A stretch of 64,000 bases of DNA from Beggiatoa leptomitoformis (GTDB lineage Bacteria; Pseudomonadota; Gammaproteobacteria; Beggiatoales; Beggiatoaceae). A model generated the notes under the pieces. The model was not told the DNA's origin and made no database searches. It was given only the letters and a program-made list of their open reading frames with translations. Where the stretch lies: the NCBI RefSeq assembly GCF_001305575.3, contig NZ_CP012373.2:3792261-3856260 (forward strand), given 5' to 3'. This document shows positions 1,039 to 40,290 of this stretch, piece by piece (position 1 is the first letter of the stretch; each line of letters begins with the position of its first letter). The position numbers and the translations under genes are program-made.

Positions 1039-4000
1039 ATGTCTGCACCTTATCCCTTTAACGGCTTCACATTTGCGGATTTATCCCGTTTAGAAACACT
1101 TTATCGTTTTGACCAGCAATTTCTCGACTTTTTAGCCGAACAATCGCCCGCATTAAAAACCGATTTATTAGCTTATCGTCATGCAAATTGTGAATTTACA
1201 CCCATTGAAATCAGTACATTATTAGTAGCCTGTGCGCCACTATTAGAGATTTTTATTGCGCAGTTGTTTGGACTAGAAACCGCGTTAAATAAGGCAAACC
1301 AGCAAACCTTAAACCATAACCCTATATTTGAATTTAAAAAATGGTTCGTACAACGGCGGGCGCGGCGGCGGTTAAACAAAGTAGAAACCTTAATACCGTT
1401 TGCTGATTTGCAAGATTGGCTTGTCACTGAATTTGAAAAATATCAAATAAACACAGCGGATTTGGAATTTGCAATAGCCCAATTAGGACAATATTATTTA
1501 AGTAATACAAGTGATTATAAGCAAGAGATAGAGCAATTAACGCAATGGTGCATTCACGCGCTACGTGAACCAGACGCACAACAGTTTGTACAAAACTGGG
1601 TCAGTTTTCACTTACCTAATCAACGCAATCATGATGACTTAATCCACACAATTCCCGTTAAACATCAAAGTATTGACTGTTTGATAACAGACGGACAGCA
1701 ACAGCGAGAAGGTTTTAATTTAACAGATTCGCGTATGTCAGCCCGTCAAGTGCAAAGTGAAGTTGATTATTGCGTGTATTGTCATGAGCATGATGGTGAT
1801 TTTTGCTCAAAAGGCTTTCCTGAGAAAAAAGGGGAACTAACTTTAAAAATTGACCCATTAGGCGTAACGCTAACAGGCTGTCCATTAGGAGAAAAAATTT
1901 CTGAAATGCACCTGCTCAAGCGACAAGCTCACACGATTGGTGCGCTTGCCATGCTCATGGTTGATAATCCTTTTTGTCCTGCAACAGGGCATCGGATTTG
2001 TAATGATTGTATGAAGAGCTGTATTTATCAAAAACAAGACCCTGTTGATATTCCTCAAGCAGAAACACGCATTTTAACGGATGTTTTAGCATTGCCTTAT
2101 GGTGTAGAAATTTATGATTTGCTCACACGTTGGAATCCCCTACGGCAAAAACAATATTTACCCTGTCCATATAATGGGCTAAAAGTCCTGATTGCAGGAC
2201 AAGGACCTGCAGGATTTACCCTTGCGCATCATTTGTTAATGGAAGGCTTCGCCGTCGTGGGCGTGGATGGGCTAAAAATAGAACCATTACCAATTGAATT
2301 CTTGACACAACCTATCCGTGATTATGCTCAACTACAAGAACCACTGGCCGAGCGCATTATGGCGGGGTTTGGTGGTGTGGCAGAATATGGGATTACGGTT
2401 CGTTGGGATAAAAATTTTTTAAAATTGATTTACTTATCGTTACTGCGTCGCACGCATTATCAAGTATTTGGTAGTGTGCGTTTTGGGGGAACATTGACGA
2501 TAGCAGATGTATGGGCGTTAGGCTTTGACCATCTTGCTATTGCGGTTGGTGCAGGATTACCACAAGCCTTAGCAATTCCGAATAGTTTGGCAATTGGAAT
2601 GCGTCAAGCCAATGATTTTTTAATGACTTTACAACTCACGGGTGCGGCAAAACTGAATAGTTTAGCGAATTTACAAATTCGCCTTCCTGCGGTTGTCATT
2701 GGCGGGGGATTAACAGGCGCAGATACCGCAACGGAAGTGCAAGCGTATTATTTATTACAAATTGAAAAAACGTTATTTCGTTATGAAATTTTAAGCGAAC
2801 AATGGGGGGAAAGTAGTTTACGTCAGGGATTAGATACAAAATCATTAGAAATTTTAGATGAGTTTTTAAGCCATGCCCGCGCTGTTCGTGCTGAAAAAAT
2901 CCGCGCCCAACAGGCAGGTACACCACCCGATTTGCGTCAATTACTCCATCGCTGGGGCGGTGTTACTATCGCTTATCGTCGCAGTTTACAAGCCTCACCT
3001 GCCTATATTCGCAATCATGAGGAATTAAATAAGGCATTGGCTGAAGGCATTTTTTACGTGGAAAACGCCGAGCCAGACCATGCCCACTTAGATGCAGAGG
3101 GACATTTAACCGCTATTCAGTTTAAACGCGATGGTGCAGTGATATGTTTATCTGCACGCTCGGTTTTTATTGCAACAGGGGCGCGTCCAAATGTCGCTTA
3201 TGCGTTTGAACATCAAGGTGAATTAGAAAGGGATGGTTTTCAATATCGTTTATATACCCGTCAACAAGATACTTTACAACAAACTGATGTTAAACCTGCT
3301 CATTGTAAAGTTTCTGATTTTGGTGCATTTACCTCGTATCAGCAGGATGGACGTTGTGTCTCCTTAGTGGGTGATACTCATCCTGTTTTTCATGGAAGCG
3401 TGGTTAAAGCCATTGCGTCCGCGCAAAAAATTTACCCGCAGATTGTGGCCAGTTTTGCCGAGCGAGTGCAACAAATTGGGGATGAGCGCGCCTATCAAAC
3501 CTTTCGTGCTTACCTTTATGACCAATTACAAGCCATTGTTGTTAAAGTGGAACACCGTTGTCAACAAACGCTTGCGTTAACCGTTCGCGCACCGCTTGCC
3601 GCTCGCCGTTATCAAGCAGGACAATTTTTCCGTGTGCAAAATTATGAAAGTCTTGCCCCTGTTATCGCAGGTACACGCTTACACATGGAAGCCCTCGCAT
3701 TGTTTGCCTCACAAGTTCAACCCGACAGTGGCGAAATTGAATTTTTAATTCAGAAAATAGGTACAAGCGCGCGTCTGGTCGCAACTTTTCAAGCAGGACA
3801 ACCGCTTGCAGTAATGGGGCCAACAGGGGTACGTACTCGCATTGGTGATGGAAATGAAACGGTTTTAATCATTGCCGAACAAGCGGGTATTGTAAACAGT
3901 TGCATGGTTGGGCGCGCTATGCGTCAGGCGGGTAATCGGGTAGTGTGTTTCGCCCATTTTTCTTCAGCAACAGATATTTATTGTCAAACTGAATTAGAAG

Positions 4001-4485
4001 CAGCGGCGGATGTGATTGTTTGGGTAACAGATAGTACAGCACCGCTTACTAACGGTCGTCCACAAGACCTGCATTTTGTCGACTCGATGCTTGATGCGTT
4101 AAGTCGCTACGCCCAAACCGTGCAACCTATTCCTTTATCTGTGGTTAATCGGGTGTTAGTGCTGGGCAGTCCTGCCTTATTGCGCGCGGTTCAAAACGCT
4201 CGCTGTGGCGCGTTCCGTGACTATTTTGTGGATAAAACAGATTTTACAGGCGCGGTTTACAGCACTATGCAGTGTATGCTCAAAGGTGTTTGCGCTCAGT
4301 GTTTACAATGGCAAATAGACCCTGTGACGGGAATGCGTACTAAAGCGGTTTTCGCCTGTTCGTGGCAAGAGCAACCACTTGAATGGATAGATATAGATAA
4401 TTTAAACGCGCGTTTGCAACAAAATACGTTACAAGAATATTTAAGCAATCGGTGGTTGGATTATTTGTTACAAACAGAGCGATGA
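1039..4485 (+). CDS. Fused GltD/NfnB-like and PyrK/NfnA-like flavin-iron-sulfur oxidoreductase
   Basis: A soluble 1148-residue redox enzyme. Residues 1-230 are an unrecognised, mostly helical region. Cysteine clusters follow: CVYC at 245 with more Cys to about 281, then a CPATGHRICNDC block at 313-329, resembling the two [4Fe-4S] sites of glutamate synthase small subunit. An FAD-binding Rossmann motif GQGPAG is at 387 and a second dinucleotide motif GGGLTGAD at 555. From about 845 a ferredoxin-reductase-like FAD/NAD domain follows, ending in a PyrK-type cluster (Cys 1079, 1085, 1088 and a later Cys). In known enzymes these two halves are separate subunits (NfnAB, SudAB), so this is a natural fusion. 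Direction of electron flow and partner are unknown. It stands alone, with no cotranscribed neighbour. No clear Shine-Dalgarno sequence precedes the ATG. Confidence 0.75.
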   Translation: MSAPYPFNGFTFADLSRLETLYRFDQQFLDFLAEQSPALKTDLLAYRHANCEFTPIEISTLLVACAPLLEIFIAQLFGLETALNKANQQTLNHNPIFEFKKWFVQRRARRRLNKVETLIPFADLQDWLVTEFEKYQINTADLEFAIAQLGQYYLSNTSDYKQEIEQLTQWCIHALREPDAQQFVQNWVSFHLPNQRNHDDLIHTIPVKHQSIDCLITDGQQQREGFNLTDSRMSARQVQSEVDYCVYCHEHDGDFCSKGFPEKKGELTLKIDPLGVTLTGCPLGEKISEMHLLKRQAHTIGALAMLMVDNPFCPATGHRICNDCMKSCIYQKQDPVDIPQAETRILTDVLALPYGVEIYDLLTRWNPLRQKQYLPCPYNGLKVLIAGQGPAGFTLAHHLLMEGFAVVGVDGLKIEPLPIEFLTQPIRDYAQLQEPLAERIMAGFGGVAEYGITVRWDKNFLKLIYLSLLRRTHYQVFGSVRFGGTLTIADVWALGFDHLAIAVGAGLPQALAIPNSLAIGMRQANDFLMTLQLTGAAKLNSLANLQIRLPAVVIGGGLTGADTATEVQAYYLLQIEKTLFRYEILSEQWGESSLRQGLDTKSLEILDEFLSHARAVRAEKIRAQQAGTPPDLRQLLHRWGGVTIAYRRSLQASPAYIRNHEELNKALAEGIFYVENAEPDHAHLDAEGHLTAIQFKRDGAVICLSARSVFIATGARPNVAYAFEHQGELERDGFQYRLYTRQQDTLQQTDVKPAHCKVSDFGAFTSYQQDGRCVSLVGDTHPVFHGSVVKAIASAQKIYPQIVASFAERVQQIGDERAYQTFRAYLYDQLQAIVVKVEHRCQQTLALTVRAPLAARRYQAGQFFRVQNYESLAPVIAGTRLHMEALALFASQVQPDSGEIEFLIQKIGTSARLVATFQAGQPLAVMGPTGVRTRIGDGNETVLIIAEQAGIVNSCMVGRAMRQAGNRVVCFAHFSSATDIYCQTELEAAADVIVWVTDSTAPLTNGRPQDLHFVDSMLDALSRYAQTVQPIPLSVVNRVLVLGSPALLRAVQNARCGAFRDYFVDKTDFTGAVYSTMQCMLKGVCAQCLQWQIDPVTGMRTKAVFACSWQEQPLEWIDIDNLNARLQQNTLQEYLSNRWLDYLLQTER

Positions 4486-4497
4486 TGTATAAAAATG

Positions 4498-4530
4498 ACG
4501 GATACTGCCGTTTATAGCGGTAATATCCGT
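4498..4530 (+). terminator. Imperfect hairpin after the oxidoreductase gene
   Basis: A 13-base stem (ACGGATACTGCCG against CGGTAATATCCGT) with one mismatch, one G-U pair and a 7-base loop begins 13 bases after the stop codon. No clear T run follows, so termination is uncertain. Confidence 0.4.
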
Positions 4531-4602
4531 TTAGAATCTGTCTGAATCAGAATTAATAAATAAAAAAACTTTTTCATTTATATAGGGTTTTTCATTTTTA
4601 TA

Positions 4603-5745
4603 TCAATTACCTAACAATTTACCATATTTCCGATGCGCGAGTTTATGCGTACCTGCAATTTTGCAAAAACTCTCCCCCGGACGCACTAATTTTTCTAATC
4701 GACGCGCGAAAATAACCCCATCTGTTTGACTAATTACAGGAATACGGGATTGTTCGGGAGAGCTTGCCGTGATATTGACAACATCAGCAACTACTTCGCC
4801 CGCGTGAACATATTCGCCAAGTGCTTTGTGATACGCCAGTATGCCTGCAAGCGGGGCTTTAAGAACATCTGCACCTTCTAAAGGCGTTGGTTTACAGAGT
4901 AAGGCGGGTAATGGTTCAGGTTTGCCTGCGATAATTCCGCGCCGTTGCAAATAGCGGAAAAGATTTAACGCGTCAGAACGGGCAAGCGTATCATCCACGT
5001 CGGCACGCCCACGTAATTCTATGGTTGTCGAAAAGCAGGCTAACGGAATAGGGAAGGTGTCTGGCAACCTGTCGCGCAATTTCCACCATATCCCAGCATT
5101 CGCTTCGTCAAATGAGTCACCACCTACATTGTCCTCGACTAAAATGGTTTTCGCGCCCAGTTGCGCGCCCAGTGTCATTCCTTGTTCAACATGATGTTTT
5201 GAAACATATAAATGTACTAAGGCTTCCCCGTCGCAGTGTAAGTCTAATACTTCATCCGCATCAATAGATAAGCGTAATAAGGCTTTTTTTAAGGCTTCTG
5301 GTTCAGTGTCATTACTTTGAATTTGTAGCTGTTGTTGCAACGCGCTACGAATACATTGCACATTTTGTGTTGCAGAATTAGTGAGTTGTGGTTCAACGAT
5401 GGCTAACACGGCCTCTGTTAAATCGGGATAATCTCGATTGAAATTTTTGCCTATTTCAAAATCAAAACGTCCAACTAAATGTCCATTTAAATATTGTCCT
5501 AAACCGATTGGATTTGCGACGGGTACAAGGACAATTTCCCCGATAATTTCGCCATTTTCTGCCGCATTATCCAATAATTGCTGTAGATGATGTAAAACTA
5601 ATAAACCGGGTAATTCATCTGCATGTAATCCCGCATGTAAATAGGCTTTAGGACGCGCCCCTACCATGCCGTAGCGGTGTACTAATAAACTGCGTTGGGT
5701 TAGGGGGGATGGAGAAACTAAGGTAAGCGTTGTTGTTGTTTTCAT
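4603..5745 (-). CDS. Succinylglutamate desuccinylase/aspartoacylase-family (M14-like) zinc deacylase
   Basis: A 380-residue member of the AstE/AspA family, carboxypeptidase-like zinc enzymes that hydrolyse N-acyl amino acids or related amides. The zinc ligands are visible: H41 and E44 in the HADE motif and H170 in DLHCDGE. NFNRDYP at about 101 matches the substrate-carboxylate Asn-Arg motif, and E242 in TTIELRGR is the likely catalytic glutamate. After residue 290 a lipoyl/biotinyl-like beta segment follows (GILAYHKALGEYVHAGEVVADVV), as in the larger predicted-deacylase subgroup. It is monocistronic between two genes on the other strand. There is no arginine-succinyltransferase pathway gene nearby, so the substrate cannot be named. 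Confidence 0.8.
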   Translation of the reverse strand: MKTTTTLTLVSPSPLTQRSLLVHRYGMVGARPKAYLHAGLHADELPGLLVLHHLQQLLDNAAENGEIIGEIVLVPVANPIGLGQYLNGHLVGRFDFEIGKNFNRDYPDLTEAVLAIVEPQLTNSATQNVQCIRSALQQQLQIQSNDTEPEALKKALLRLSIDADEVLDLHCDGEALVHLYVSKHHVEQGMTLGAQLGAKTILVEDNVGGDSFDEANAGIWWKLRDRLPDTFPIPLACFSTTIELRGRADVDDTLARSDALNLFRYLQRRGIIAGKPEPLPALLCKPTPLEGADVLKAPLAGILAYHKALGEYVHAGEVVADVVNITASSPEQSRIPVISQTDGVIFARRLEKLVRPGESFCKIAGTHKLAHRKYGKLLGN

Positions 5746-30580: not shown

Positions 30581-32371
30581 ATGTTACAACGACTGATGAT
30601 TTTACAACAACATGCGGTTTTATCAGAAATAGATGTGCATTTCGGTCGTTTTATTGCGCGGTTAGCCCAAACAACGGATGAAAACATCATGTTAAGTGCC
30701 GCATTAACCAGTTATATGGTTGCGCAAGGACATGTTTGTTTAGATTTAAACCTATATGCAAATAGCCTTTTTCCTAACACAACGGAAACAGAGTTATCTG
30801 ATGACAATTATTTACAATTGCCAACCTTAGAACAATGGAAAACCAGTTTGCAACAAAGCCATGTTGTTGGTCATCTTGGTGAATATAAACCATTAATTTT
30901 AGAAAATAATCGGCTCTATTTATATCGTTATTGGGATTATGAACAACTATTAGCACAACAAATTCATCAACGTTTATACCGTGCAAGCCCCGCCATAGAT
31001 AAACAACAATTAAGCATTGATATAAATAACTTATTTGAAAATAAAACCACCGAAACAGATTGGCAAAAAACCGCCGCGTTACAAGCAGTTTTAAATCATT
31101 TTTGCATTATTTCTGGTGGACCCGGTACAGGTAAAACAACGACCGTGGTTAAAATTCTTGCGTTGCTACTCGCACAACAGCCCGAATTGCGCATTGCATT
31201 AGTCGCACCTACGGGCAAAGCCGCTGCGCGTTTACAAGAGGCGATTACACAGAATAAACATCGTTTAGCATGTCCTACAGATATTAAAAGTAAAATTCCG
31301 CAAGAAACATCCACAATTCATCGCCTATTAGGGAGCATTCCTAACTCGCCCTATTTTCGTAGTAATGCAAAAAATTCATTGCCTTATGATGTCGTTGTAG
31401 TTGATGAAGCGTCTATGGTGGATTTAGCATTGATGGCAAAATTAGCACAAGCTATTCAAGCCGATGCGAGATGGATTTTATTAGGTGATAAAGACCAACT
31501 CACTTCCGTAGAAGCGGGAACAGTATTAGGTGATTTATGTACGGTGTTAGAAGATGTCACGATAGAAAATACACTAAGCAAACTCAGTGAAAATATAGTC
31601 TTACTGCGTAAAAGCTATCGTTTTGATGATAATAGCGGAATTGGTAAAGTTGCACACGCGGTTAAGGCGGGTGATGGTAAAGGTGCACTAACAGCTTTAA
31701 AAACAGCAGGTTCTAATGTACGTTGGCATGATTTACCTGTGCATAGTAGTTTACAAAATGCGTTACATGACAGTGTGGTTGAAGGATTTTCGCGTTATTT
31801 ATCAGTAGTCAATAAAGACCCTCAAGCGGTATTACAAGCATTTGATGAATTTCGGATTCTTTGTGCTTTACGGAGAGGGCTATATGGTGTGGAATCGGTC
31901 AACCGTGTGGTGGAACAAATTTTAAAAACAGCAGGTTTAATAAAGTCTTATTATCCTTGGTATGTCGGTCGTCCGATTTTGATTACACGCAATGATTACA
32001 CAACCCATTTATATAATGGTGATATTGGCGTTGTTTTGTGGAGTCGGGAAGTGCGCAATGAATTACAAGCCTATTTTCCTGCAACGGACGGGGGCGAACC
32101 GCGTGCTTTTTGGCTGAATCGTTTGCCTGAGCATGAAACGGTATATGCGATGACGATACATAAAAGTCAGGGGTCTGAATTTGATAAAATTTTGATGTTA
32201 TTGCCTGAGCAAGAATCACCCATTTTAACCCGTGAATTGTTATACACGGGGATTACACGGGCTAAAAAAGCGGTGAGTATTTGGGGAAATGAAGCCGTTT
32301 TTTCGCAAGCAGTACAAACGCGAATTCAGCGAAATTCTGGTATGCGCGAGGCGTTACGTGCATTAGGCTAG
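30581..32371 (+). CDS. recD: Exodeoxyribonuclease V subunit alpha
   Basis: The 5'-3' helicase subunit of RecBCD, which processes double-strand ends for recombination and degrades linear DNA. 596 residues, close to the usual length. Walker A ISGGPGTGKTTT is at 178-188, Walker B VVVDEASMVD near 277, and the C-terminal helicase motif YAMTIHKSQGSEFDKILMLLP and ITRAKKAV are present. The N-terminal RecD domain is also recognisable. In most gammaproteobacteria recD follows recB; here recB and recC are not next to it, and it forms its own unit, convergent with the hydrogenase small-subunit gene. Confidence 0.93.
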   Translation: MLQRLMILQQHAVLSEIDVHFGRFIARLAQTTDENIMLSAALTSYMVAQGHVCLDLNLYANSLFPNTTETELSDDNYLQLPTLEQWKTSLQQSHVVGHLGEYKPLILENNRLYLYRYWDYEQLLAQQIHQRLYRASPAIDKQQLSIDINNLFENKTTETDWQKTAALQAVLNHFCIISGGPGTGKTTTVVKILALLLAQQPELRIALVAPTGKAAARLQEAITQNKHRLACPTDIKSKIPQETSTIHRLLGSIPNSPYFRSNAKNSLPYDVVVVDEASMVDLALMAKLAQAIQADARWILLGDKDQLTSVEAGTVLGDLCTVLEDVTIENTLSKLSENIVLLRKSYRFDDNSGIGKVAHAVKAGDGKGALTALKTAGSNVRWHDLPVHSSLQNALHDSVVEGFSRYLSVVNKDPQAVLQAFDEFRILCALRRGLYGVESVNRVVEQILKTAGLIKSYYPWYVGRPILITRNDYTTHLYNGDIGVVLWSREVRNELQAYFPATDGGEPRAFWLNRLPEHETVYAMTIHKSQGSEFDKILMLLPEQESPILTRELLYTGITRAKKAVSIWGNEAVFSQAVQTRIQRNSGMREALRALG

Positions 32372-32431: not shown

Positions 32432-33412
32432 TTAACGACAAACAGGGTTTTTAGTAAAGGTGAGGCGATGGTAAAAAGAGCCTTTATCCCAAAAACCTTC
32501 TTCTGAACAGCCTAAACAACCATGTCCTGAATTGATAGGGTAAGAAGTGCCACCATTCCAGCCTGTTGTTGCACAGGCGTTGTAAGTTGTTGGCCCTTTA
32601 CAACCCATTTTATAGAGACAATATCCCTGTTTCGCCCCTTCATCATCCCAACTTTCTACAAAACGCCCTGCGTCAAAATGGGCGCGTCTATAGCATTTAT
32701 CATGAATTCGTTTACTGTAAAACAGGGTTGGGCGTAGTTGTGTATCTAGTTCGGGTAATTCTTTAAATGTTAATAAGTAAACCAAAATACCAACCATAAC
32801 TTCAGCAATGGGTGGACAACCCGGTACTTTTATAATGGGTATATCAGCGGTAACTAGTTTGTGTACAGGGGTTGCTTGGGTTGGATTAGGGTAAGCGGCT
32901 TGTACACAACCGTTAGAGGCGCAACTCCCCCATGCAATAATCAATTTTGCATCTGGAATTGCACGGTTAAGTTGTTCAGAAAAGGGTTTTCCGCCAACAA
33001 TACAGGACATCCCTTCTTGTGCGATAGGCGCGTTACCTTCTACGGCTAATATATAATTACCCTTATATGTTTCCATGATTTGCGCTAGACAATCTTCTGC
33101 TTGCTTGCCTGCAGCCGCCATTAAAGTCGGGTCATAGTCTAGGGAAATCATTGATAAAATAACGTCTTTTGCTAATGGCTGGGCAGCCCGAATAAAAGAT
33201 TCTGAACAGCAAGTACATTCCAAGCCGTGCAACCATAAGACGGGTTGACGTACTTCAGTTTCCATTGCATAAACAACTTTGCTGATGTAGTCAGGTGATA
33301 AGCCTAATGAGGTTGTCATCAATGCGCAGAATTTTAAAAAACTACGGCGCGTAATGCCTTGACGTTTCATCACGTCATAGTAACTTTCTAGTGCTATCTT
33401 GGCGGGTTTCAT
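32432..33412 (-). CDS. [NiFe] hydrogenase small subunit, exported by Tat
   Basis: The iron-sulfur electron-transfer subunit of a periplasmic-side uptake hydrogenase (HyaA/HoxK/HupS type). A Tat signal RRSFLKF lies at about 20-26. [10 protein letters not shown] and [16 protein letters not shown] supply proximal-cluster cysteines with IKVPGCPP. The [25 protein letters not shown] and [14 protein letters not shown] blocks supply the medial and distal clusters. The ATG at 33412 (326 residues) follows GTAGGAG, which overlaps the stop of the upstream cytochrome gene. The C-terminus ends at KNPVCR, without the membrane anchor helix of HyaA. No large subunit, maturation protease or hyp gene lies nearby, which is unusual. 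Third gene of a cytochrome-cytochrome-hydrogenase operon. Confidence 0.9.
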
Positions 33413-33426
33413 TGTGCTTAATTCTC

Positions 33427-34182
33427 CTACGGAATGCTGACTTGACGACAAGATTGACTGGTTGCGTTGCTGATATAGCTTGCGATTTGTGCAAGGTCAT
33501 CATCCGTTAAGCGACTCACAATGCTTTTTTTAGCAGGCACAAAGTTGACAGAGTTTTTAACTAATTCAGGAAATTGTGCGGCTAAAAATCCATCCTCATG
33601 ACAAGCACTACAATATTGTTGATACAGGGTTGCACCCTTGCTTTGAAATGTCGCAAGGCTGGTTTCACTCAAGATTTGTTTTTCACAATCAACAGCATCA
33701 TCCGCAATACCGTTGGCATTACAGTCGCTATCCGCGATACCGTCCCGATTTTCATCATGACTAATATGCGGTGGCAAGCCGACGCTAAATTGTAGGCTTT
33801 GTACGGGCATTAGCCATGCGTTGCTGTCAAAGGGGGATTGGTTACTGGCGGTAATAACTTGATAAAGTGGATAAATCCCTGTTGTTATAAAACTGATGGG
33901 GATATTTAATAAAATTTGTTGATTTGTATAGGTTTGATTTTGTGCATAGGGAATAGGGGTTGTTTGCAAGCCTAGTTCAGGGGTAAAAAAGTAGAGTTGT
34001 TGGTCGGATAAAATAGTGGCTAGATACAAGTCGCCTTGCAAGGGTGCAGGTAGCACTAAAACAGCTTGTAAGGGTTGTTCTGCTTGAAATAATACAACCG
34101 CAGGACTTTCTAATGTAGCCTCTGTTGCAACTATTGGAAAACTCAGTACTAATGAAACAAAACCAAGAAGTGCGCGAAACAT
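33427..34182 (-). CDS. Exported c-type cytochrome with beta-sandwich N-terminal domain
   Basis: A 251-residue periplasmic protein. It has a signal peptide ([19 protein letters not shown]) and an N-terminal domain of about 120 residues that is also found in the next upstream gene ([33 protein letters not shown]). [21 protein letters not shown] calcium-binding-like repeat follows, then one C-terminal cytochrome c domain with CSACH heme attachment and a distal Met in the last part. The start at 34182 has AGGAAATTT before it; upstream Met codons would only lengthen the signal peptide. It lies between the other cytochrome and the hydrogenase subunit, so it probably takes electrons from, or passes them to, that enzyme. 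Confidence 0.8.
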
Positions 34183-34302
34183 AAATTTCCTGTCACTCAT
34201 TGAGTAGAAAAGAGAGTCCAACAGAAAAGTCGGGGAATTATTGGACTCTATAAAATAAAATTAAGGTAGGTATCTGAAGCAGTTGTTTTTATGGAGGTAA
34301 AA

Positions 34303-34968
34303 CTAGCGGCTACCTGAAATAACACTGGTCATGTAGTTGGCAATGGACGTTAATTCTGCATCGGTTAGAAAACTGAGGTATTTCATGCCACCATCATTTG
34401 CATTAATGGCGCGACGGGTTTTTGACGCAGAGCTGGCATCGGAATATCGCGTGCCATGACAGCTTTGACAGTTATCTACATACAGTGTTTTACCAGCGGC
34501 TATATCGTCTGTGGTCGTGGTTGTTGTACTACTGCTAGTTGATAAAACAACAACCGTTGTTACATGTAATCCATCAATCCCTTCTAACCAATTATTTACA
34601 TCATAAGGTGATGTCCCTGTTTTAACAGTTAATTCGTATAAGGGATAGTTTCCCGCTGTTAAACCCAAAACAGGTATAGAGAGTAGAGAGTAATTACCTG
34701 AAAATAAAGTATTTGTCCGATAAGGAATGGCTTCTGTGGTTATTCCAACAGATTCGGTAATAAACAGTAGGCTAGTGGTATTGGGCAATAGCGTTGCTAA
34801 ATACAAATCGCCTTGTACGGGTGTATCAAAAACAGCACTGAGAACGAGGGTATCATTTTGTGCAAGAGAGGCATTGGCAACGGTTAAACCATTAGAGTAA
34901 GCAATATTTGCATATAATACAGTGCTTATACTGAGGGCAATTAATAGCTTACGAAAAGAAACAGACAT
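34303..34968 (-). CDS. Exported c-type cytochrome, paralogue of its downstream neighbour
   Basis: A 221-residue periplasmic protein. Signal peptide MSVSFRKLLIALSISTVLYANIAYS, the same N-terminal domain as the downstream gene ([34 protein letters not shown]), a Ser/Thr-rich linker (STSSSTTTTTTDD) and a single cytochrome c domain with CQSCH heme attachment and candidate Met ligands near GGMKYLSF. The start at 34968 has CCAAGGAAATTATC before it. First gene of the cytochrome-cytochrome-hydrogenase operon. The shared N-terminal domain shows the two arose by duplication. Confidence 0.8.
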   Translation of the reverse strand: MSVSFRKLLIALSISTVLYANIAYSNGLTVANASLAQNDTLVLSAVFDTPVQGDLYLATLLPNTTSLLFITESVGITTEAIPYRTNTLFSGNYSLLSIPVLGLTAGNYPLYELTVKTGTSPYDVNNWLEGIDGLHVTTVVVLSTSSSTTTTTTDDIAAGKTLYVDNCQSCHGTRYSDASSASKTRRAINANDGGMKYLSFLTDAELTSIANYMTSVISGSR

Positions 34969-39327: not shown

Positions 39328-39541
39328 CTTATTGAGTGAAAAACGATGACGTACACAAAAACTAAATTGCTACTGGTCGAGGACTGTAGCTCTATGCGTT
39401 TAGTGTTGCAACATTGGTTGAAAAACTATTGTGATGAAATATTGATAGCAACCGATGGACAAGAAGCTTTAGGGCGTGTCATCAAATAGTAAAAAATGTT
39501 ATATTATAATCATATACCCAGATATCGCCAAGGATAAAACA

Positions 39542-39961
39542 ATGAGTCGTCGCTATGCCTTAACCGATGAACAATGGTCAAAACTAGAACCGCTACTCCC
39601 TGGGCGTAAAGGACATGTCGGGATGACGGCTAAAGATAACCGCTTGTTTATTGATGCTGTTCTATTCCGTTATCGCAGTGGCATTCCTTGGCGCGACCTC
39701 CCCGAACGCTTTGGTGATTTCCGTGTCGTCCATACCCGCTTCAGTCGTTGGTCTAAGAAAGGTGTCTGGGAACGTGTTTTCAAGATACTAAGTGCCGATG
39801 CCGATAATGAATATGCCATGATAGACAGCACAATAGTTAGAGCGCATCAACATAGTAGTGGTGGTGGCGCAGATGAAGCCATTGGACGTAGCGCAGGGGG
39901 TTTAAGTACCAAGATTAACTCCGTTGTTGACGCACTGGGCAATCCGACCCTTTTTTTTTGA
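39542..39961 (+). CDS. IS5-family transposase, first frame
   Basis: The 139-codon first frame begins at ATG 39542 (MSRRYALTDEQWSKLEPLLP). It holds the N-terminal DUF4096-type region and the first catalytic Asp (YAMIDSTIVRAHQHSSG), and ends at a TGA inside GNPTLFF just after nine T. In relatives the sequence continues into LTAGQASDLEGA in the -1 frame. Confidence 0.92.
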   Translation: MSRRYALTDEQWSKLEPLLPGRKGHVGMTAKDNRLFIDAVLFRYRSGIPWRDLPERFGDFRVVHTRFSRWSKKGVWERVFKILSADADNEYAMIDSTIVRAHQHSSGGGADEAIGRSAGGLSTKINSVVDALGNPTLFF

Positions 39962-40290
39962 CTGCGGGACAGGCAAGCGACCTTGAAGGGGCTGATGCTC
40001 TTATTCCTCAGATAAAGGCAAACGCTTTATTGGCTGATAAGGCTTATGATGCAGATGAACGGGTTAGAGATGTTTTAAAACAGCAAGGCATAGAACCTGT
40101 GATTCCGTTCAGGAAAAATCGTTTAAATCCACCTGATTATGATAAAGCTCTTTATAAGGCACGTTATTTAATCGAGCATTTCTTTGGTAAATTAAAGCAA
40201 TATCGTGCAATAGCTACACGATATGATAAACGCGCTAGGAATTTCTTAAGTGGGGTTTATTTGGCTTCTACCTTGATTCTTTTAGCTTGA
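39958..40290 (+). CDS. IS5-family transposase, second frame
   Basis: 110 codons with the rest of the DDE domain: Asp in LLADKAYDADE and Glu in YLIEHFFGKLKQYRAIATRYDK. The apparent TTG start lies within the overlap; the product is expected only as a fusion made by -1 frameshifting on the T9 run at 39951-39959. Confidence 0.92.
   Translation: MTAGQASDLEGADALIPQIKANALLADKAYDADERVRDVLKQQGIEPVIPFRKNRLNPPDYDKALYKARYLIEHFFGKLKQYRAIATRYDKRARNFLSGVYLASTLILLA

Follow-up and report, generated by a model that had tools for sequence, protein, structure and literature searches.

Each small subunit of a [NiFe]-hydrogenase is generally regarded as having one fixed large-subunit partner. In Beggiatoa leptomitoformis, a gene for a small subunit is located behind two genes for c-type cytochromes and no large subunit is encoded beside it. 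The analysed stretch of DNA, called the window, is 64,000 nucleotides long (contig NZ_CP012373.2, positions 3,792,261 to 3,856,260), and the positions given below are those of the window unless another contig or locus label precedes them.

Organization of the Locus

The three genes lie on the minus strand in the order cytA (34968-34303), cytB (34182-33427) and small subunit (33412-32432). On the plus strand, recD (30581-32371) is convergent with the small-subunit gene. These coordinates agree with the preliminary description of the locus, which placed the small subunit third after two exported cytochromes, with recD next on the other strand. No match to the large-subunit family PF00374 is present anywhere in the window.

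The cytB and small-subunit genes appear, by eye, tightly coupled: the stop codon of cytB overlaps an RBS-like TAGGAG before the ATG of the small subunit (33415-33429, minus strand; by-eye interpretation of the sequence readout). A single transcript of all three genes is uncertain, because a hairpin with a T-rich tail (34213-34249, minus strand; judged by fold z-scores) parts cytA from cytB. Of the proposed single operon, the coupling of the last two genes is thus retained and the three-gene transcript is left in doubt. A hairpin with a T-rich tail is found at this place in all three copies of the unit (in the window, in a second copy in the same genome and in a related genome, G046), and the hairpin sequences are unrelated. 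Their fold z-scores are -2.87, -3.86 and -2.44, for stretches picked after the hairpins had been noticed. The hairpin is possibly a partial terminator or a processing site. A terminator scan of the locus found three candidates versus 2.8 expected by chance, the shorter stem of this hairpin among them, and a promoter scan of the locus gave matches no more than chance. A sigma-54-like GG-N10-GC motif upstream of cytA is absent from two of the three upstream stretches and occurs twice in the third.

Divergent from cytA is a gene for a fused SoxYZ-like carrier (TIGR04557, 35324-36166). A transposase-like pair of reading frames, named by eye, is located at 39476-40290 and is found nearly identical elsewhere in the same genome (L009:15717-16531).

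The Small Subunit

The third gene (32432-33412, minus strand) encodes an orphan [NiFe]-hydrogenase small subunit of the HupS/HyaA type, Tat-exported and anchor-less, as judged by TIGR00391, the cluster ligands, the tree and the tail. The likely start is the ATG at 33412; the mechanical reading frame extends to a TTG at 33451. The NCBIfam model TIGR00391 matches residues 22-329 with 485 bits (cut-off 179.5), over positions 4-310 of the 365 of the model, and the unmatched end of the model presumably corresponds to the anchor. The Pfam families NiFe_hyd_SSU_C and Oxidored_q6 also match. The classification by profile models that had been suggested for this protein identifies it as a [NiFe]-hydrogenase small subunit.

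The Tat signal and the complete set of cluster cysteines that had been noted are both confirmed: the motif reads ITRRSFLKF, and none of the 13 cluster ligands is missing (six-Cys proximal set, four distal and three medial), at the alignment positions that we take to be ligands. Positions 19 and 120 are Cys in the three orphans and in all 30 HupS-type sequences, and Gly or Ala in all 20 Isp-type ones. The six proximal Cys, together with a Glu taken as a neighbor of the cluster, are present in every orphan. Beyond the folded core, the tail counts 12 residues; that of the host's own HupS counts 70 and includes a hydrophobic stretch. Such a tail is too short for a membrane helix and, hence, the protein is without a membrane anchor, as had been described. 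The nearest solved chain is 3ayx (502 bits); a single-chain structure model based on 11 sequences had a low pLDDT of 56.

Among known systems, the orphan shares its family, the six-Cys proximal ligands, the Tat motif and its place in the tree with the small subunit of the oxygen-tolerant membrane-bound enzymes (HupS/HoxK/HyaA), which we take to be group 1d; the labels 1b and 1e used below are assumed in the same way. Unlike these, it has no C-terminal membrane helix and no neighboring hupL or hupC, and cytochrome c genes are found in their place. By sequence, the protein is, thus, a HupS-type small subunit in which two features of that enzyme class are missing: the anchor and the neighboring large subunit. 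The soluble hydrogenases found in the periplasm of sulfate reducers (group 1b) have an anchor-less small subunit and a cytochrome c acceptor, with adjacent genes for the small and large subunits. With regard to these first two features, they provide a model of how the orphan might work. Chains taken as group 1b give ~220-270 bits against the window protein, and the best 1d chain gives 502 bits.

In the Isp-type hydrogenases (group 1e), electron-transfer genes part the small from the large gene, and the family studied here also has this type, with hynL apart in some genomes. Isp-type small subunits are without the two extra proximal Cys and mostly have a longer tail, and the Isp1 and Isp2 proteins of the family have no CxxCH motif. 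The window orphan does not have a four-Cys proximal site, nor does it fall in the Isp branch. The order hynS-isp1-isp2-hynL is that of the Thiocapsa operon, according to PMC3325256.

Hydrogenases of the Host Genome

The host genome (G000) is a single contig of 4,265,317 bases, estimated to be 100% complete. It encodes four group-1 small subunits versus two full-length large subunits. A whole-genome search with PF00374 gave three matches, none of which lies in the window, so the reported lack of a large subunit at the locus stands. Two matches are full-length (C1:268520-270103 and C1:1133713-1135269) and the third is weak (37 bits). A complete hupSLC operon is located at C1:267-271 kb, and its HupS is 69% identical to the window protein; hynS-isp1-isp2-hynL is located at C1:1130-1135 kb, with a HynS of 51% identity. 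A second orphan small subunit (C1:3000798-3001757), 83% identical to the window copy, likewise follows immediately after a pair of cytochrome c genes whose products carry the N-terminal domain of cytA and cytB; leucine-rich repeats are additionally present in the first of these cytochromes. The unlinked large subunit and the hyp genes for which a search had been proposed are, thus, represented by hupSLC and by one HypD gene, HypD being the only hyp gene searched for.

The third PF00374 match (C1:3516252) was considered as HupK-like and rejected, as it is a NuoCD/HycE-like ORF. This protein (L011:6593-8209, C1 ~3515.6-3517.2 kb) combines Complex1_30kDa and Complex1_49kDa, and no other hydrogenase-4 or complex I gene was seen by eye in the surrounding 14 kb. 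Weak PF00374 matches similar to it occur in G001, G046, G003, G056 and other genomes.

Distribution of the Three-Gene Unit

The cytA-cytB-small subunit unit is found in two of 42 genomes of the family (a sample identical to the one for the order): the host, with two copies, and the Thiotrichaceae MAG STC_44 (G046). The gene order in the latter, which also carries hupSLC and a HypD gene, is identical, so that the arrangement, which the preliminary description suggested looking for in other genomes, recurs in G046 as well as in the second copy of the host. No linked large subunit is present at any of the three copies. The other species of the genus examined (G001) is without the unit and has hupSLC and Isp-type subunits.

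When contigs beyond the family were scanned with three cytB sequences, 45 pattern matches and a single relative turned up, the latter on the G046 contig, in a collection that may omit the genome of the window. In a class sample of 369 genomes, 78 have a small-subunit match, and no further member of the orphan clade was found among them: the three orphans score 725-736 bits, and the next best is the HupS of G046, at 620 bits. No description of an orphan group-1 small subunit was recognized in the open-access literature searched (including PMC4853749, PMC7784907, PMC9886862, PMC10583674, PMC6981441, PMC10811913, PMC5421297 and PMC3325256). The hupSL of Thiomargarita was rejected as a parallel, since it is incomplete and likely belongs to group 2c, as stated in PMC4853749.

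A weak PF00374 match in G046 (L094) was rejected as a partner of the orphan: it adjoins its own small subunit and an ORF that is protease-like by eye. The G046 unit is followed downstream, on its own strand, by genes for a cytochrome b561 (L074:7129-7635) and for a 452-residue CxxCH protein (L074:5749-7107); no Pfam family was found for the latter at E 0.01.

The Cytochromes CytA and CytB

Both cytochromes are exported monoheme c-type proteins, with one CxxCH motif each and an N-terminal domain common to the two. CytA (34303-34968, minus strand) carries a GGM motif; in cytB (33427-34182, minus strand), the N-terminal beta-sandwich domain is accompanied by an Asp-rich D.N.DG..D motif. The GGM of relatives is taken as the axial-Met motif. 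At its site, cytB has VPxK in all three copies, and in the cytA of copy 2, a Lys replaces the Met, whereas the window and G046 cytA retain GGM. Our guess from these residues is that the heme ligand may have changed in cytB and in the copy-2 cytA.

The N-terminal domain of cytB is predicted as a beta-sandwich, with a block-mean pLDDT of 74-94 over residues 51-150, in a model whose heme domain is of low confidence. A Foldseek search with the domain model gave no match at E <= 0.001. The best structural Z, 8.3 (Wzt carbohydrate-binding domain, dextranase), is tied with antibody-like folds and, hence, the domain is given no function. A search of the host genome with the N-terminal domain finds four places, which are the four cytochromes of the two units. 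Elsewhere in the family, it occurs on single-heme cytochromes and on proteins of ~700 residues, of which L078 is a multiheme cytochrome by Pfam and L079 and L080 by eye. The domain, which had been presented as novel, is indeed common to cytA and cytB but is not confined to the operon, and its spread over other cytochromes, including multiheme ones, makes it look like a general periplasmic cytochrome domain of the family. In two relatives of cytB (L076:463-1446, L077:8159-9487), long Asp-rich repeats of the D.N.DG..D type separate the N-terminal and heme domains.

Conservation and Divergence of the Orphans

The three orphans form one clade (100/100) inside the HupS branch (100/100), within which the position of the clade is not fixed by the tree; the two host copies are sisters (99/94), with a branch length of 0.24 for the window copy versus 0.076 for copy 2. 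Between orphans, dN/dS is 0.08-0.10, versus 0.04-0.085 for HupS pairs; in the wider pairs, synonymous sites approach saturation. Higher values are obtained for the cytochromes, 0.147 for cytB (the single computable pair) and 0.214 for cytA; both are ~50% identical between copies, with saturated synonymous sites.

Seventy-two positions are invariant across 30 HupS-type and 20 Isp-type sequences (counted without rows L038, L039, L018 and L122). All 72 are kept in both host orphans and 70 in that of G046. At the 167 positions conserved to at least 95% in HupS (same rows left out), the orphans deviate at 19, 14 and 18, compared to a leave-one-out maximum of 11 among the 30 anchored HupS. Fourteen positions conserved to at least 90% in HupS are changed in all three orphans, at ten of them to the same residue. 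Two of these changes, Q263R and K275Q, are near distal-cluster ligands in the sequence, as would be expected if the electron acceptor had changed. P141A is three residues from the conserved Glu138, and some of the changes, such as this one, may lie on the large-subunit side, for which contact loops are given in PMC9886862. The orphans, hence, make up a constrained yet distinct subfamily.

Anchor-Less Small Subunits in Related Genomes

Nine anchor-less small subunits are found in eight genomes of the family: G000 (two), G046, G016, G052, G050, G008, G003 and G056. None of the nine has lost a Tat arginine or any of the 11 common cluster ligands. In a tree of 40 small subunits (tails unmeasured for HynS_G052, HupS_G006, HupS_G014 and HynS_x029), four changes explain the anchor-less state, at least three of which are forced by well-supported branches. 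Most of these lineages are Isp-type, and their proteins break 2-8 of the 72 invariant positions, where the leave-one-out maximum is 2 (row L019 also left out).

The six outside G000 and G046 are all of the Isp type, and their surroundings vary. The Isp-type anchor-less subunit of G016 is followed by a protein with eight CxxCH motifs; that of G052 lies behind an eight-CxxCH cytochrome and is convergent with a six-CxxCH one; that of G050 is beside a six-CxxCH protein, with hynL ~2.3 kb away and truncated where the contig stops. The anchor-less subunit of G008 has a hydrophilic, Gly/His/Met-rich tail of 57 residues and is followed by a diheme cytochrome (Pfam DHC). In G003 and G056, it comes directly after hynS-isp1-isp2, in the place expected for hynL, which is located elsewhere; there is no cytochrome neighbor. 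The assumption that small and large subunits are nearly always neighbors, made in the preliminary description, hence fails in this family. A hynL without any small subunit in the surrounding 7 to 14 kb is found in G003, G056 and G052, and in the single contig of G003, the distance to the anchor-less subunit is ~1.0 Mb. With hynL apart from any small subunit in these three genomes, their hydrogenases must already be assembled from subunits encoded at different loci.

A CxxCH protein is the immediate neighbor of seven of the nine anchor-less small subunits versus none of 13 others in the family (12 ordinary arrangements and an extended one in G008). Seven of nine stands for fewer independent events, because the nine proteins stem from about four lineages. 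One of 119 ORFs has a CxxCH motif in 13 loci that do not contain an anchor-less small subunit; the comparison and baseline loci were hand-picked. The extended small subunit of G008 is encoded next to hynL (L177:5675-7105 and 3708-5444), and a C-terminal stretch of ~160 residues replaces its anchor. This stretch is similar to the C-terminal region of two of the family's eight-heme cytochromes (blastp 3.5e-10 and 9e-6 within a set of seven sequences), with which it perhaps shares a docking domain.

A large subunit of at least 300 bits is present in 25 of the 42 genomes. This hand tally uses cut-offs of ~250 bits for small and 300 bits for large subunits, which are not sorted by hydrogenase group; G047 (a 252-bit fragment), G017 and G054 (fragments) are counted as without one, and the large subunits of G015 and G050 are partial. 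Small subunits outnumber large ones in eight genomes: four to two in G000, three to two in G046, three to one in G008 and two to one in G003, G056, G016, G052 and G050. For G008, either all three small subunits must share the one HynL or some of them must act without it. The surplus occurs in eight of the 25 genomes with a large subunit versus none of the 17 others (Fisher p 0.009), in rows that are not independent, as G003 and G056 are congeneric and several of the 17 are incomplete MAGs. The test is also partly built in, because all eight genomes hold other small subunits and the large subunit is, thus, already partnered. In G005 and G021, a large subunit is present and no small subunit was found, possibly because of incomplete assembly.

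A Putative Soluble Module for an Existing Hydrogenase

We propose, with a probability of roughly one half, that the locus provides a resident [NiFe]-hydrogenase with an alternative electron-transfer module, which would be soluble, borrow HupL and feed the cytochromes instead of HupC and the quinone. The orphan would acquire its fold and its Fe-S clusters in the cytoplasm and would bind mature HupL from the distant hupSLC operon, after which it would carry this partner out through the Tat pathway. In the periplasm, the HupL:orphan pair would split H2, and the electrons would pass from cluster to cluster (proximal, medial, distal) and on to cytB and cytA, and from there to the cytochrome c pool, bypassing HupC and the quinone. 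The pairing with HupL, the flow to cytA and cytB, the solubility in the periplasm and any regulation by the hairpin are what we infer from the genes and their arrangement.

Several observations support the sharing of HupL: the proximal site is retained; the protein matches the resident HupL in type; surplus small subunits are restricted to genomes with a large subunit; hynL is separate in relatives; and cytochrome genes are neighbors of most anchor-less small subunits. It is weakened by the fact that the orphans deviate more than any anchored HupS and that cytA and cytB diverge fast. The preliminary description left the choice between a large subunit encoded elsewhere, with the cytochromes in place of the anchor or of cytochrome b, and a stand-alone protein; the matching hupSLC operon and the relatives favor the former, the pairing itself being deduced.

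The second of these options is the main rival, although the less probable one: a periplasmic Fe-S protein that would act without a large subunit, as a three-cluster wire from another donor to the two cytochromes. The lack of a linked large subunit at all three copies speaks for it, as does the divergence of the orphans, faster than that of HupS and away from its consensus at the same 14 positions. Against it speak the retention of the unusual six-Cys proximal site and the presence, in both host copies, of every position invariant in 50 group-1 small subunits; all eight genomes with an anchor-less small subunit also have a large subunit of at least 300 bits.

It is quite unlikely that the unit is a dispensable hupS duplicate heading for loss. 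Its absence from G001 and the longer branch of the window copy would fit such a fate, but the reading frames are intact and the gene order is the same in two species and in two copies. Moreover, with dN/dS of about 0.1, all 72 invariant positions in place and the ligands intact, the unit is not decaying. Hence, of the possibility raised earlier, a hupSL operon elsewhere and a decayed duplicate here, the operon exists and the decay is not seen.

A decoy, chaperone or regulator, in which the small subunit would control the pool or export of HupL and carry no electrons, fits the excess of small over large subunits in eight of 42 genomes; it is very unlikely, as it gives no reason for the full set of cluster ligands or for the cytochrome genes beside seven of the nine anchor-less subunits. 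Least likely of all is the Isp-type HynL as partner instead of HupL, for although most anchor-less lineages are Isp-type and HynL may often be the partner of such subunits in the family, the window protein sits in the HupS branch and is much closer to HupS than to HynS.

Implications for the Family

The sharing of HupL may be part of a wider pattern. Tentatively, and at somewhat less confidence than for the locus itself, the [NiFe]-hydrogenase of this family, which comprises large sulfur bacteria, can be pictured as modular: one large subunit would be common to interchangeable small subunits, either anchored and quinone-linked or soluble and associated with specific c-type cytochromes (mono-, di-, hexa- or octaheme). 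Small subunits without an anchor arose about four times, and the electron acceptor for H2 would be set by the choice of the small subunit. With four small and two large subunits in one bacterium and three small and one large in a relative, such an exchange of wires is directly testable. If true, genome surveys based solely on large-subunit counts overlook a share of the hydrogenase repertoire, and the orphan unit would offer a natural template for connecting an oxygen-tolerant hydrogenase to soluble acceptors, electrodes included. Such sharing would also explain how a single active site could supply electrons to the quinone pool as well as to periplasmic cytochromes.
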